Assembly (NCBI GenBank): GCA_030619985.1
Contig: JAUXAI010000046.1
Coordinates: 1 to 9,970 of the forward strand
DNA: 9,970 nucleotides
Source of the DNA: a bacterium
GTDB taxonomy: Bacteria; UBP18; UBA7526
Direction: 5' to 3'
The translations under genes and the position numbers were made by a program. The notes beneath the pieces were generated by a model. It saw only the letters and a program-made list of their open reading frames with translations. It was not told the DNA's origin and ran no database searches. The first letter of the stretch is position 1, and each line of letters opens with the position of its first letter. This document shows positions 4,370-9,970 of this stretch, piece after piece.

Positions 4370-4783
4370 ATGGAAAAATACAAGATATTAGAACATACTG
4401 CGGATGTGGGCATAGAGGCAGAAGGAAGAACCTTGGAAAAGGCATTTGAGAACGTTGCTTCTGGGATGCTTTCTCTTATGATCGATCCAGAAAAAGTCAG
4501 TGAAAAGGAGTCCTATTCTCTGAAAGTAAAGGGAAGGGATGAGAAGGAACTACTAGTTGCTTTCTTAAGTGAACTGCTCTATAAGTATGAGGTAAACGAT
4601 ATTCTGCCGAAGAGGGTTGATATTTCTCTTTTGACTAATAAAGATTTGAAGGCTGAGGTATACGGAGAGAAGATAGATCTGAAGAGACACACCATAGATA
4701 CCCAGATCAAGGCAGCCACCTATCATCAACTAGCGATAGAGAAGAATAAGAACTGGAGAATAAGGGTGATTTTCGACATCTGA
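4370..4783 (+). CDS. Archease, RtcB ligase cofactor
   Basis: Archease promotes RtcB guanylylation, lets the ligase turn over many times and broadens its nucleotide use. The 137-residue product has the usual family length. It carries the N-terminal EHTADVGIEAEG motif with His9 and the metal-binding Asp12, the central ELLVAFLSELLYKYE helix, the late KAATYHQLAIE strand, and a C-terminal FDI end whose Asp136 corresponds to the second conserved metal ligand. The ATG at 4370 gives exactly this N-terminus. The upstream AAGAAG is only a weak ribosome site. The gene lies before rtcB on the same strand, an association known in bacteria and archaea, but here 244 bases of repeat-rich DNA separate them, so a single transcript is possible rather than certain. 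Confidence 0.95.
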   Translation: MEKYKILEHTADVGIEAEGRTLEKAFENVASGMLSLMIDPEKVSEKESYSLKVKGRDEKELLVAFLSELLYKYEVNDILPKRVDISLLTNKDLKAEVYGEKIDLKRHTIDTQIKAATYHQLAIEKNKNWRIRVIFDI

Positions 4784-4785
4784 AA

Positions 4786-4950
4786 CACAGATTATCACAG
4801 ATTTGATACAGATGATCACAGATAAATCCGTGTTTATCGGTGCTTTTAATTATGGAGGGTTAGAAGGGTTAAATGGGGTAAGAGAGTAAACCCCCTCCCC
4901 CCTTCATCCCTTTACCATACATCTGCGGTCATCTGCGTTCAAAATCTGTG
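4786..4950. repeat. Imperfect inverted-repeat element with helically phased CACAGAT units
   Basis: The left arm carries CACAGAT-type heptamers at 4786, 4796, 4807 (TACAGAT) and 4817, spaced 10, 11 and 10 bases, close to one helical turn. The right arm carries the reverse complement at 4921 and 4931 (ATCTGCG) and 4944 (ATCTGTG). Read inverted, the right arm matches the left over CACAGATTT-GA, CAGATGA, CAGAT and then TATGG plus G-rich sequence. The left arm has an extra stretch of about 27 bases (4824-4850) containing ATCCGTG. The whole could fold into a long imperfect hairpin, like a non-autonomous palindromic element. No reading frame lies in it. Confidence 0.6.
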
Positions 4951-4975
4951 TCAATGCTTAATATTTATGCTCTCT

Positions 4976-4998
4976 AGAATGCCAGCGAAGCGCATTCT
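4976..4998. repeat. Mini-hairpin AGAATGC...GCATTCT with a GCGAAGC tip, upstream of rtcB
   Basis: AGAATGC (4976-4982) pairs perfectly with GCATTCT (4992-4998). Inside, after a two-base CA bulge, GC-GAA-GC (4985-4991) forms the tip with the C-GAA-G loop also seen at 3202-3214. The hairpin ends 29 bases before the rtcB start and 13 bases before its ribosome site, so it would lie in the rtcB leader if the transcript begins upstream. No T-run follows, so it is not an intrinsic terminator. Confidence 0.55.
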
Positions 4999-5027
4999 GT
5001 AATCCGTGCATAAAGAGGCTTACAAAG

Positions 5028-6485
5028 ATGAAGAAGGAGTGGACCGGACCGTTAGAGAAGATCGATGAATATAGATACAGGATCCCTAAGTCCTACAAAT
5101 CGGGGATGCGCACCTCAGGGATTATCTATACCGATGAGAAACTTCTAAAGAGCATCCGCCAGGACCAGGCACTAGACCAGGTGGCCAATGTTGCCTTTCT
5201 TCCCGGGATCGTGGGAGATTCCCTGGCCATGCCCGACATCCACTGGGGCTATGGCTTCCCCATTGGCGGTGTGGCTGCCTTTGATGTAGAGAAGGGTGTC
5301 ATATCTCCCGGAGGGGTGGGGTACGACATAAATTGTGGAGTGAGAGTTCTGCGCACCAACTTGAGAGAAAACGATATAAAAGAAAAGGTTCAGGATCTGG
5401 GATGGGCTCTCTTCAGAGAGATTCCCTGTGGGGTGGGCTCTACGGGAAGAATAAGGGTGAGCGATAGCGAATGGCAGGAGGTCCTTACCAAGGGCACCCA
5501 GTGGGCGGTGAAGAAGGGATATGGATTACCAGAGGATATTGAACATACAGAGGAGAAGGGTGCTATGCCCGGTGCTGACCCAGATAAGGTCTCTCATCAT
5601 GCTAAAGAGAGGGGGAGAAAGCAGTTGGGAACCTTGGGAAGTGGGAACCACTTCCTGGAGATTCAGGTAGTAGAAGAGATATTTGATGATGAGGCAGCAA
5701 GGGTCTTTGGAATAGAGAAGGGCTCCATCACGGTGATGATTCACTGTGGCTCTCGTGGTTTCGGCCATCAGGTCTGTACTGACCACCTGGTTTTCATGGG
5801 AAGGGCCATAGAGAAGTATGGTCTGAGCCTTCCCGATAGACAACTGGCCTCTGCCCCAGTCAATTCTAAAGAGGGTAAGGCCTATTTCGGGGCCATGGCC
5901 TGTGCGGCAAATTATGCCTGGGCAAATAGGCAGTGCATCATGCACTGGACGAGAGAGATTTTTGAGAAAGTTCTGGGAAGGAGTCCCAAGGATTTAGGGA
6001 TGGATTTAATCTATGATGTGGCCCATAATATCGCCAAGTTCGAGGAATATGATATAGAAGGAAAGAAGGTAAAATTATGCATCCATAGGAAGGGAGCAAC
6101 CAGGGCCTTTGGACCGAATCATCCTCAGATTCCTAAAGAATATAAGTCCATCGGACAGCCGGTCCTCATTCCGGGTGATATGGGAACTAATTCCTATATC
6201 TTAGTGGGAACTAAGAAAGCAGAAGAAGAGTCCTGGGCCTCGACCTGCCATGGCGCAGGAAGGGTAATGTCAAGGCATGCTGCTATTAGACTTACCAGGG
6301 GAAGGAATATTAAACAGGAGTTAGCAGAAAAAGGGATCATCGTCCACTGGAGGGGAAGGCATACCTTGCAGGAGGAGGTCTCTGAGGCCTATAAGGATGT
6401 CAATGAAGTAGTCCATGTGGTTCAGGGAGCAGGGCTTTCGAAGAAAGTAGCCAAGCTAAGACCTTGGGTAGTTGTGAAAGGATAA
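5028..6485 (+). CDS. rtcB: RtcB, 3'-phosphate/5'-hydroxyl RNA ligase
   Basis: RtcB joins RNA ends bearing 2',3'-cyclic phosphate or 3'-phosphate to 5'-hydroxyl ends using GTP and Mn2+. It works in RNA repair and, in archaea and animals, in tRNA splicing. The 485-residue protein is full length. Motifs: MPDIHWGYGFPIGG (68-81), GGVGYDINCGVRVL with metal ligands Asp100 and Cys103, GSGNHFLEIQ with Asn207 and His208, MIHCGSRGFGHQ with His239, DVAHNIAK with His333, and STCHGAGRVMSR with His408, the expected histidine that forms the covalent GMP adduct. All active-site positions are present. The ATG at 5028 has AAAGAGG at 5012-5018 with a nine-base spacer. Archease is the preceding gene. There is no RtcA cyclase or RtcR regulator in the window, so the Enterobacteria-type rtc operon is not present here. 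Confidence 0.98.
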   Translation: MKKEWTGPLEKIDEYRYRIPKSYKSGMRTSGIIYTDEKLLKSIRQDQALDQVANVAFLPGIVGDSLAMPDIHWGYGFPIGGVAAFDVEKGVISPGGVGYDINCGVRVLRTNLRENDIKEKVQDLGWALFREIPCGVGSTGRIRVSDSEWQEVLTKGTQWAVKKGYGLPEDIEHTEEKGAMPGADPDKVSHHAKERGRKQLGTLGSGNHFLEIQVVEEIFDDEAARVFGIEKGSITVMIHCGSRGFGHQVCTDHLVFMGRAIEKYGLSLPDRQLASAPVNSKEGKAYFGAMACAANYAWANRQCIMHWTREIFEKVLGRSPKDLGMDLIYDVAHNIAKFEEYDIEGKKVKLCIHRKGATRAFGPNHPQIPKEYKSIGQPVLIPGDMGTNSYILVGTKKAEEESWASTCHGAGRVMSRHAAIRLTRGRNIKQELAEKGIIVHWRGRHTLQEEVSEAYKDVNEVVHVVQGAGLSKKVAKLRPWVVVKG

Positions 6486-8741: not shown

Positions 8742-9044
8742 GTGAAAGGGGAACTACCGCAGTTTTTAGAGAAATATTTCTGGGATGTGGAATTTAAAGA
8801 ACTGAATATGAAGAGATCTGCTCGTTTCATTTTGAAGCGTATCTTAGAATATGGGGATGAGAAAGCAATAGCCTGGATGAGGAAGAATTTTACCGAAAAG
8901 GATGTAGAAGATATTTTAATTAATCTCAGAATCTCTCCCAAGAGCGCCAATTTTTGGGCTACTATATTTGATATTGATAAAAGGAAAGTTTTATCTCTGC
9001 AGAAATCTTATCTGGAGAGACGATATAGAGTCTGGCCATATTAA
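8742..9044 (+). CDS. DUF6922-like protein, possible antitoxin partner of a nucleotidyltransferase
   Basis: The 100-residue product matches, as far as I can recall, the DUF6922 pattern: an N-terminal LPQFLEKYFWDVEF segment (5-18), a central RFILKRILEYGDEKAIAWM helix pair (28-46), and the late motif SPKSANFWATIF (65-76). Proteins of this type are often encoded beside AbiEii/MNT nucleotidyltransferases, as here (two genes downstream), which suggests an antitoxin or regulator role. That role is inferred from context only. The start is a GTG at 8742; the only upstream purine run, GAGTGAG, is weak, so the exact start is less certain than the frame. It is predicted to be soluble and largely helical, with no membrane segment. 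Confidence 0.75.
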   Translation: MKGELPQFLEKYFWDVEFKELNMKRSARFILKRILEYGDEKAIAWMRKNFTEKDVEDILINLRISPKSANFWATIFDIDKRKVLSLQKSYLERRYRVWPY

Positions 9045-9069
9045 ACAGGTATTTTCTAATGGGGTTTTG

Positions 9070-9096
9070 CACAGGTAACCGCAGATAAATTTGTGT
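9070..9096. repeat. Short CACAGGT/CGCAGAT repeat remnant
   Basis: CACAGGT at 9070 and CGCAGAT at 9080 are spaced 10 bases, followed by AAATTTGTGTTG. This is the same wording and phase as the element upstream of rtcB (CACAGAT units then AAATCCGTGTTT). It lies in the 68-base gap between the DUF6922-like gene and the next gene. Confidence 0.45.
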
Positions 9097-9112
9097 TGAG
9101 GAGAAAGAAGGA

Positions 9113-9322
9113 GTGAAGAGAAGATACCAGCTACTCTCTGGATGGAAACATGAGAATCTGGAGAGGAAGATAGAGTGGTTTCTTTCATTGTCTATTACTG
9201 AGAGATATAGTCAAATAATCGGCTTAGGTGAATTTTTGAGGTTAGCTAGGACAAAGAAGAAAGAGGTCTATTTGAATGCTCGCAGAACATTTAAGACTAT
9301 ACAGATCCTTAAACAAAAATAG
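9113..9322 (+). CDS. Small basic protein upstream of a nucleotidyltransferase
   Basis: The 69-residue product starts at a GTG with GAGGAG at 9099-9104, nine bases away. It contains WKHENLERKIEWFLSLSITERY (11-32), likely helical, and a basic end (NARRTFKTIQILKQK). I recall similar short proteins directly before nucleotidyltransferase genes in other bacteria, with comparable 'KI.WF..LS..ERY' and '..RTFKT.Q' wording, but I cannot name a family. Its last 47 bases overlap the start of the next gene in another frame, which implies translational coupling. It may be a third component of the module with the DUF6922-like and nucleotidyltransferase proteins; this is inferred from position. Confidence 0.65.
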   Translation: MKRRYQLLSGWKHENLERKIEWFLSLSITERYSQIIGLGEFLRLARTKKKEVYLNARRTFKTIQILKQK

Positions 9323-9737
9323 GGTAAGATACTTAGTAATCGGTGGGGTAGCCTGTGGTATCTATGGTTCTCCTCGAGTAACAGTGGATGTGGATATAGC
9401 CATTGAGCCCGCACTAGAAAATACCATAAGACTACATAAGGCGTTGATTGAGGCAGGATTTGGTACCGCGCACTTGACTACTCCGGAGAAGATATTGGCC
9501 AATGAGATCAATATCTTTAACGATTATATAAAGTTGGATATAATAACCAAGCCCAAGGGTCTTGATTTCAAAAAGGCTTGGCCAAGAAGATCGATTAGAG
9601 ATATAAAAGGAGTCAAAGTGAAATTTATCTCTCTGGATGATCTCATAAAATCTAAAGTTGCTTCACACAGGAGAATAGATATAGAGGATGTTAAAATCTT
9701 AAAGAAGATAAAGAAGAGGTTAAAAGCAAAGGGTTGA
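9276..9737 (+). CDS. AbiEii/MNT-type nucleotidyltransferase
   Basis: The 153-residue protein has the minimal nucleotidyltransferase (pol-beta superfamily) signature: RYLVIGGVACGIYG (18-31, the GG loop), then VDVDIAI with the paired metal-binding Asp38 and Asp40, and a third acidic residue in KLDII (Asp88). The C-terminal SLDDLIKSKVASHRRIDIEDVKIL segment (119-142) is typical of the AbiEii/DUF6036-like group. Family members act as the toxin of AbiE-type systems, transferring nucleotides to RNA or protein targets, and others have unknown substrates. The ATG at 9276 is the only in-frame start ahead of the GG loop, so the 47-base overlap with the preceding gene is real. AAGAGG about nine bases upstream can serve as the ribosome site. 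The catalytic residues look intact, so it is likely active. Confidence 0.88.
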   Translation: MLAEHLRLYRSLNKNRVRYLVIGGVACGIYGSPRVTVDVDIAIEPALENTIRLHKALIEAGFGTAHLTTPEKILANEINIFNDYIKLDIITKPKGLDFKKAWPRRSIRDIKGVKVKFISLDDLIKSKVASHRRIDIEDVKILKKIKKRLKAKG

Positions 9738-9784
9738 GTGATAAGAGGAGAGGTGCGGGAGTGGTTTAACCGGCACGCCTGCCC

Positions 9785-9804
9785 GCCCTGACAGCTATCA
9801 GGGC
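9785..9804 (+). repeat. Hairpin GCCCTGA...TCAGGGC
   Basis: GCCCTGA (9785-9791) pairs perfectly with TCAGGGC (9798-9804) around CAGCTA. It is the first of two hairpins filling the anticodon-loop position of the tRNA-Ser-like sequence. CCGCCC at 9783-9788 could alternatively pair with GGGCGG at 9829-9834, enclosing both hairpins, so two exclusive folds are possible. Confidence 0.7.
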
Positions 9805-9808
9805 GAGG

Positions 9809-9837
9809 TCTCGCCCACCAAAATTGGTGGGCGGAGA
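9809..9837 (+). repeat. Strong hairpin TCTC-GCCCACCA-AAAT-TGGTGGGC-GAGA
   Basis: GCCCACCA (9813-9820) and TGGTGGGC (9825-9832) pair perfectly around AAAT. After one bulged G (9833), TCTC (9809-9812) pairs with GAGA (9834-9837), giving twelve pairs in all. It ends 14 bases before the GIY-YIG start codon. No T-run follows. It may shield or regulate the nuclease message, or be a recognition structure. Confidence 0.75.
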
Positions 9838-9851
9838 GAGCGTGTAAAACA

Positions 9852-9970
9852 ATGTGGAATATTTATGTACTTTTTAGTGAGAAAACAGGGCGTACCTATA
9901 TAGGGTGTTCAAAAGATATTCAAGCACGTTTAAATCGACACAATTCGGGGCGGGTAAAAGCAACTCGTAG
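9852..9970 (+). CDS. GIY-YIG nuclease domain protein, 3' end missing
   Basis: An ATG at 9852 opens a frame to the end of the window encoding 39 residues. The first residues MWNIYVLFSEKTGRTYIGCS carry the family core: IYV at 4-6 corresponds to GIY and TYIG at 15-18 to YIG. ARLNRHNSGR follows, with the arginine and the H-N pair typical of the small UvrC/URI-like (YhbQ-type) single-domain nucleases, usually about 80-100 residues. The domain cuts DNA one strand at a time in repair proteins and homing endonucleases. No ribosome site is visible: the sequence ahead is the end of the tRNA-like region. I recall small GIY-YIG genes of this type lying directly after tRNA genes in many bacterial genomes, which fits here. 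Confidence 0.85.
   Translation, partial: MWNIYVLFSEKTGRTYIGCSKDIQARLNRHNSGRVKATR

Follow-up and report, generated by a model that had tools for sequence, protein, structure and literature searches.

Mobile DNA classically lands in tRNA genes, which integrative elements enter and restore. GIY-YIG enzymes are chiefly DNA nucleases. SegB of T4-like phages is a free-standing GIY-YIG homing endonuclease that cuts within tRNA genes of many isotypes (PMC13096335). Group I introns with homing endonucleases are found in bacterial tRNA genes, often at the anticodon region, according to some of the literature listed in PMC3984707. The insertion sequences in the rRNA genes of CPR bacteria are dominated by LAGLIDADG enzymes; the paper that describes them contains no mention of tRNA, and GIY-YIG is sparse in it and stands outside homing (PMC11270868). 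The locus analysed here differs from each of these in its anatomy, and is probably an intron-less, homing-endonuclease-like mobile cassette that was inserted in a tRNA gene with one functional tRNA kept.

Anatomy of the tRNA-Ser(GGA) locus and its empty site

The window, the whole stretch of 9,970 nucleotides that was analysed, is a contig of a 1.25-Mb metagenome-assembled genome (G000); six genomes of its phylum were in the comparison set. The last 141 bases of the window (9830..9970, + strand) are the first 141 bases of a second contig, C23, an assembly overlap of k = 141 that joins the two; the contig of a relative carries a k141 assembly name, consistent with the overlap length. The joined sequence contains, in order, a nucleotidyltransferase gene, nucleotides 1–35 of tRNA-Ser(GGA), a 54-nt insert, tRNA nucleotides 36–45, six bases, an 80-residue GIY-YIG open reading frame (ORF), one base, an intact tRNA-Ser(GGA) and, farther on, dnaX and recR.

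The first part of the tRNA relic (9747..9781, + strand), defined by alignment to the intact copy, comprises the 5′ strand of the acceptor stem, the D arm, the 5′ strand of the anticodon stem and the start of the anticodon loop. It is the same as the C23 copy at 35/35 positions, and its nucleotides 1–34 match both that copy and the empty site of a relative (G003) at 100%, as expected from the tRNA-Ser(GGA)-like 5′ part of the original prediction. The anticodon loop is then interrupted by a foreign 54-nt insert (9782..9835, + strand; two-piece alignment with p = 35, insert 54 and dG −36.1), composed largely of hairpin 1 (9784–9805) and hairpin 2 (9813–9832), beyond which nucleotides 36–45 complete the loop and supply the 3′ anticodon strand (9836..9845, + strand; 10/10 the same as the intact copy). 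The insert folds with a z-score of −6.5, and the leader as a whole with −51.1 kcal/mol (z-score of −4.5), which none of the shuffles equalled.

The pairing of CACGC (9774–9778) with GCGTG (9840–9844) across 61 bases that enclose the two hairpins is correct in coordinates and base pairs, as is the ATG of the GIY-YIG ORF at 9852, seven bases past GCGTG. This stem had been read as a conserved structure, but both of its strands were inherited from the tRNA. A conserved paired stem is ruled out by its partial loss in genome G004, where one closing pair is missing and the stem is absent from the minimum free-energy fold, and by its disappearance at locus L132, where the relic 5′ strand GATGG no longer matches the 3′ strand GCGTG. 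For the window hairpins themselves, the leaders available as homologues numbered only two.

The first 39 codons of the ORF occupy 9852..9970 (+ strand), and the frame continues in C23 to a stop at C23:265. The intact tRNA-Ser(GGA) (C23:267–354), beyond the window, begins 1 bp past this stop codon. The window shows no T arm because the contig stops at 9970, and the search of the genome for an intact tRNA-Ser(GGA) that had been proposed finds it directly behind the ORF. The idea of a small mobile cassette therefore survives in its tie to the tRNA-Ser gene and fails in its two proposed forms: a split or permuted tRNA, or a nuclease in place of the 3′ half, is ruled out by the complete tRNA directly downstream. 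A group I intron is ruled out by the lack of a catalytic core match (Rfam) in the window, L004 and L038. The unit measures approximately 350 bp, its sole product is the 80-residue GIY-YIG protein, and it contains no integrase gene of the kind that marks tRNA-integrating elements with a tyrosine recombinase.

The nucleotidyltransferase gene on the left flank (DUF6036/DUF2204; 9276..9737, + strand) is common to G003 and G004, with nucleotide identities of 86.8% and 90.9%, respectively. In G003, a single intact tRNA-Ser(GGA) lies between this gene on one side and dnaX on the other, with no GIY-YIG gene; relative to this empty site, the net insertion is approximately 348 bp. A third genome, G001, has one uninterrupted tRNA-Ser(GGA) ahead of dnaX, to which the intact tRNA of the window is 97.7% identical and thus native-like. 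The block at 8742–9737, composed of a DUF6922 gene, a small ORF and the nucleotidyltransferase gene, separates tRNA-Ser(CGA) from tRNA-Ser(GGA) in the window; it is missing in G001, where the two tRNA genes adjoin, and resembles a toxin–antitoxin-type insertion. Farther upstream, serS and the cluster of serine tRNA genes are preceded by genes for archease and the RNA ligase RtcB (4370–6485).

In G004, which belongs to another genus, relic, hairpins and ORF are present at the same place on one contig, and the nuclease is 93% identical; this contig ends shortly past its tRNA-Ser and does not cover the right flank. The two ORFs differ by 6 amino-acid changes among 12 changed codons (the last, partial codon left out), numbers that are compatible with mild constraint and too few for proof. 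With 94.6% identity in the ORF and 90.9% in the flanking gene, the comparison gives no direct sign of recent transfer at the window locus. The downstream tRNA-Ser of G004 is divergent, at 72.7–75% to the native type, and its relic is 100% native; no match to the source of the divergent tRNA was found among 290 genomes. A general model of an imported tRNA would fit G004 and a few other loci, and it fails for the window with its native-like intact copy.

Recurrence beside structured RNA genes

The original prediction was to be abandoned if no other genome carried such a leader before a GIY-YIG gene; a second genus carries the arrangement too, and further phyla have it with different tRNAs, so this ground for rejection falls away. 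Searched at the protein level, 84,980 species genomes yielded eight loci. A set of 111 distinct loci, mostly from Patescibacteria, was assembled from a 145-genome Patescibacteria sample and six earlier genomes, as the top matches to two queries, with several loci sharing a genome. A tRNA gene lies within 300 bp in 77 of them (28 upstream only, 37 downstream only and 12 on both sides), and only 1/89 tRNA neighbours is on the opposite strand; for the control, Y1 transposase loci of that genome sample, the count near a tRNA is 1/30. For about a quarter of the 111 loci no structured-RNA neighbour was detected. Of the 23 loci examined in other phyla, 20 have a tRNA nearby; one of the remaining three is in an rRNA operon, overlapping a region matched as LSU rRNA. 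In five further loci a tmRNA gene is 90–240 bp away, and one locus overlaps the start of rnpB; these neighbours suggest that structured RNA genes in general are targets. The loci beside tmRNA, over the rnpB start or within the rRNA operon are L123, L128, L133, L127, L168, L119 and L215.

Five such loci are present in the single-contig chromosome of a Zixibacteria member (CP070839), including one with a tRNA-Ala 5′ part before the ORF and an intact tRNA-Ala after it, and a further tRNA-Ser(GGA) case (L074). A Levybacteria genome has a second GIY-YIG gene between a tRNA-His relic, which holds the palindrome CCTGCCTGCAGGTAGGCAGG, and an intact tRNA-His. A different Levybacteria genome carries, between the 5′ relic of a tRNA-Phe and its intact copy (L055:1290–1878), an ORF that looks HNH-like on visual inspection, with CxxC and CxxCH motifs; a second family of nucleases may share this arrangement. 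The source genome of the window has a second GIY-YIG gene (L037; G000:C69:30521–30766) whose hairpin leader follows a short tRNA-like 5′ piece, TCCGGAGTAGC; an intact tRNA-Asn overlaps the end of this gene, and part of the hairpin sequence repeats directly past the tRNA-Asn.

Where the intact tRNA is downstream, the ORF stop mostly falls between −22 and +23 bp from the tRNA start. Among the loci with an intact downstream tRNA, to which the relic statistics are restricted, an insert-interrupted 5′ part of that tRNA was detected upstream of the ORF at a two-piece score of at least 18 in 29/51 loci versus 1/408 mismatched pairs, and at a score of at least 16 in 34/51 versus 4/408. The relic is the same as the intact tRNA copy in the window and several other loci. 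Inserts are located in the D arm, the anticodon loop (the window, L112, L132, L140, L141, L099 and L146) or the T loop (L107), and usually in, or at most 1–2 nt from, the D, anticodon or T loop, with several inside the D stem; the strong impression of a loop preference comes with no formal statistic. The inserts are strongly folded, with a median z-score of −3.0 and 22/31 below −2, compared with a median of 0.0 and 4/28 for the flanks (p = 4e-7). Where the intact tRNA is upstream, many loci have a hairpin leader before the ORF, and a 3′ relic behind the ORF reaches a score of at least 24 in 8/39 loci versus 3.7% of controls; L205, L206 and L208, from other phyla, have this form. A greater divergence of the relic piece before the hairpin than of the piece after it was not significant overall (p = 0.20), and is suggestive in L132 and L099. 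Flank sequence beyond the tRNA is duplicated at L140 alone among the loci compared, which rules out target-site duplication of the flank as a general feature.

The palindrome CTGCCTGCCGGCAGGCAG, a REP-like repeat that also occurs within some tRNA relics, is dispersed in 36 copies in genome G165, 16 in G135 and 8 in G004 (up to one mismatch), and hairpins in genomes with such dispersed palindromes may have arrived secondarily. In some genomes the hairpin is a repeat spread over the genome; for the window this is ruled out, as hairpin 2 has no second copy anywhere in G000. The leaders of L051, L052 and L054, just past the upstream tRNA, have in common an AGGCTC...GGCC motif inside a stem, the outer arm of which repeats the 3′ end of the adjacent tRNA (CGCAA, CGCTC).

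The nuclease and its candidate modes of movement

The ORF matches Pfam PF01541 at 9.8e-14, in agreement with its original naming as GIY-YIG, and Y5, Y16, G18, R26, H30 and E62 are conserved at 97–100% in 118 homologues. The domain with its catalytic Tyr, Arg and Glu places the predicted protein in the GIY-YIG superfamily. A tblastn search against all phage records (50,697) gave no match at 1e-5, a search that short divergent proteins could escape, and IMG/VR gave one partial match, at which no tRNA was found; a phage origin was rejected for want of a match in phage records. On a poorly resolved nuclease tree built from 86 columns, tRNA type changes 57 times compared with a shuffled mean of 66.5 (0/500, or 1/500 once near-duplicates were pruned) and insertion form 20 times compared with 31.8 (0/500). 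Nuclease lineage thus appears to follow target type, as for a free-standing homing endonuclease, within the weak resolution of the tree. The gene for such an enzyme is expected at its own target, with empty alleles; here the tRNA gene is the candidate target, G003 provides an empty site, and the position in tRNA genes is recurrent.

The anatomy, the empty site and the recurrence over many tRNAs and phyla are read directly from the sequences. An endonuclease-driven homing cassette agrees with the order of the parts, the cassette-free locus of G003, the near-invariance of the catalytic residues and the match of lineage to tRNA and insertion form. The mobile unit would consist of the hairpin, a short tRNA piece, the single-domain GIY-YIG ORF and a tRNA 5′ part; its insertion would leave the native 5′ end upstream as a relic and a complete, presumably functional tRNA directly behind the stop codon. 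The nuclease may nick or cut a tRNA gene that lacks the cassette, in the insertion loop or close to it, and repair would then copy the cassette across, with tRNA sequence on both sides as homology. A cut tRNA gene repaired from a donor whose ORF is flanked by tRNA sequence would give exactly the observed product. The tRNA promoter of the relic may drive the ORF and the downstream tRNA jointly, with RNase P separating them, and the hairpin may destroy the target in the relic, shield the ORF leader or both, recognition being another possible role. We propose that, because one complete tRNA always remains, spread of the cassette is tolerated by the host. In the window and several other loci, where relic and intact tRNA are identical, a nuclease that merely recognised the loop would cut its own carrier, so some rule of immunity is missing from this scheme.

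Movement may instead be directed by structure, with the hairpin and the tRNA-gene loops recognised as folded single-stranded DNA (or RNA) and nicked there by the GIY-YIG protein rather than by classical double-strand-break homing. This possibility, which we consider rather unlikely, is modelled on REP/IS200-type hairpins and attC sites; the closeness of most inserts to a D, anticodon or T loop, the strong hairpins adjoining the ORF start in both insertion forms and the dispersal of some inserts as palindromes (36 copies in G165) would suit it. However, no protein known for recognising such hairpins is present, several inserts are within the D stem and the characterised GIY-YIG enzymes cut duplex DNA. 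A tentative, broader view would take the loci as widespread minimal mobile elements (approximately 350 bp, one nuclease of 80–100 residues and one hairpin), found across bacterial phyla, that enter the loops of tRNA and other structured-RNA genes and restore the interrupted gene during insertion; what they read might be the folded cloverleaf instead of the linear sequence.

The frequent identity of relic and intact copy, the dispersed palindromes of some genomes and the duplicated flank at L140 could also arise with no active mobility, through tandem duplication of a tRNA 5′ end beside a resident nuclease gene, after which the extra copy decayed and by chance received a REP-like genomic palindrome. 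The recurrence of one order among unrelated tRNAs and phyla, the narrow spacing of ORF stop and tRNA start, the tracking of tRNA type by nuclease type, the existence of an empty site and the uniqueness of the window hairpin in G000 make this improbable. We give very little weight to a defence or addiction module in which the GIY-YIG protein would attack the tRNA as an RNase or toxin and the linked copy would serve as supply or antidote: its physical linkage with a complete tRNA and the divergent linked tRNA-Ser of G004 agree with such a role, but in most loci the linked tRNA is the same as the relic and would be no antidote, the family is found also at tmRNA, rnpB and rRNA genes, and GIY-YIG enzymes act mainly on DNA. 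An assembly chimera, which might be suspected as the window ends within the feature and the join depends on the 141-bp overlap, is hardly credible given the single contig of G004 and the flanking gene order shared with G003, and is refuted for the class by the same anatomy in a single-contig chromosome.

Comparison with known systems

No description of such a cassette was found in the open-licence papers searched, and as far as that search extends, an intron-less nuclease gene inside a tRNA, the tRNA being kept whole by a linked complete copy, is undescribed; there is a real chance that it represents a distinct class. Cassettes in tRNA genes over many uncultured phyla resemble undescribed selfish elements that spare the host by way of a whole tRNA. 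They would account for many small 'GIY-YIG nuclease family' genes of uncultured bacteria and offer a bacterial counterpart to SegB. As a small collection of nucleases, each with its natural target readable from its own location, they would also make homing directly testable, and for annotators, tRNA 5′ halves and hairpins near such genes would be insertion scars.

The closest solved sequences are the UPF0213/YhbQ-like proteins of Protein Data Bank entries 1zg2 (E value of 0.0064) and 1ywl (E value of 0.051), which have the same single GIY-YIG domain and show weak sequence similarity. As with tRNA-integrating elements, the target tRNA remains whole; the cassette differs in its lack of an integrase, its size of approximately 350 bp, the position of the complete tRNA after the cargo and the hairpin in the relic. 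The CPR insertions likewise encode endonucleases within structured RNA genes of CPR bacteria, with rRNA as the target. Group I introns share the endonuclease-linked insertion, whereas no such intron was found in the window, L004 or L038, and here a second complete copy, not splicing, preserves the tRNA. Like the cassette, SegB is a GIY-YIG gene associated with tRNA genes. However, SegB is a phage gene beside tRNA arrays, whereas the cassette places the gene for an 80-residue bacterial protein within a single tRNA gene, accompanied by a relic of that tRNA, a hairpin in its loop and a complete tRNA behind; the cassette protein had no match in the 50,697 phage records (tblastn, 1e-5). The likeness would be one of working: by analogy with SegB, the cassette may work like a free-standing homing endonuclease.
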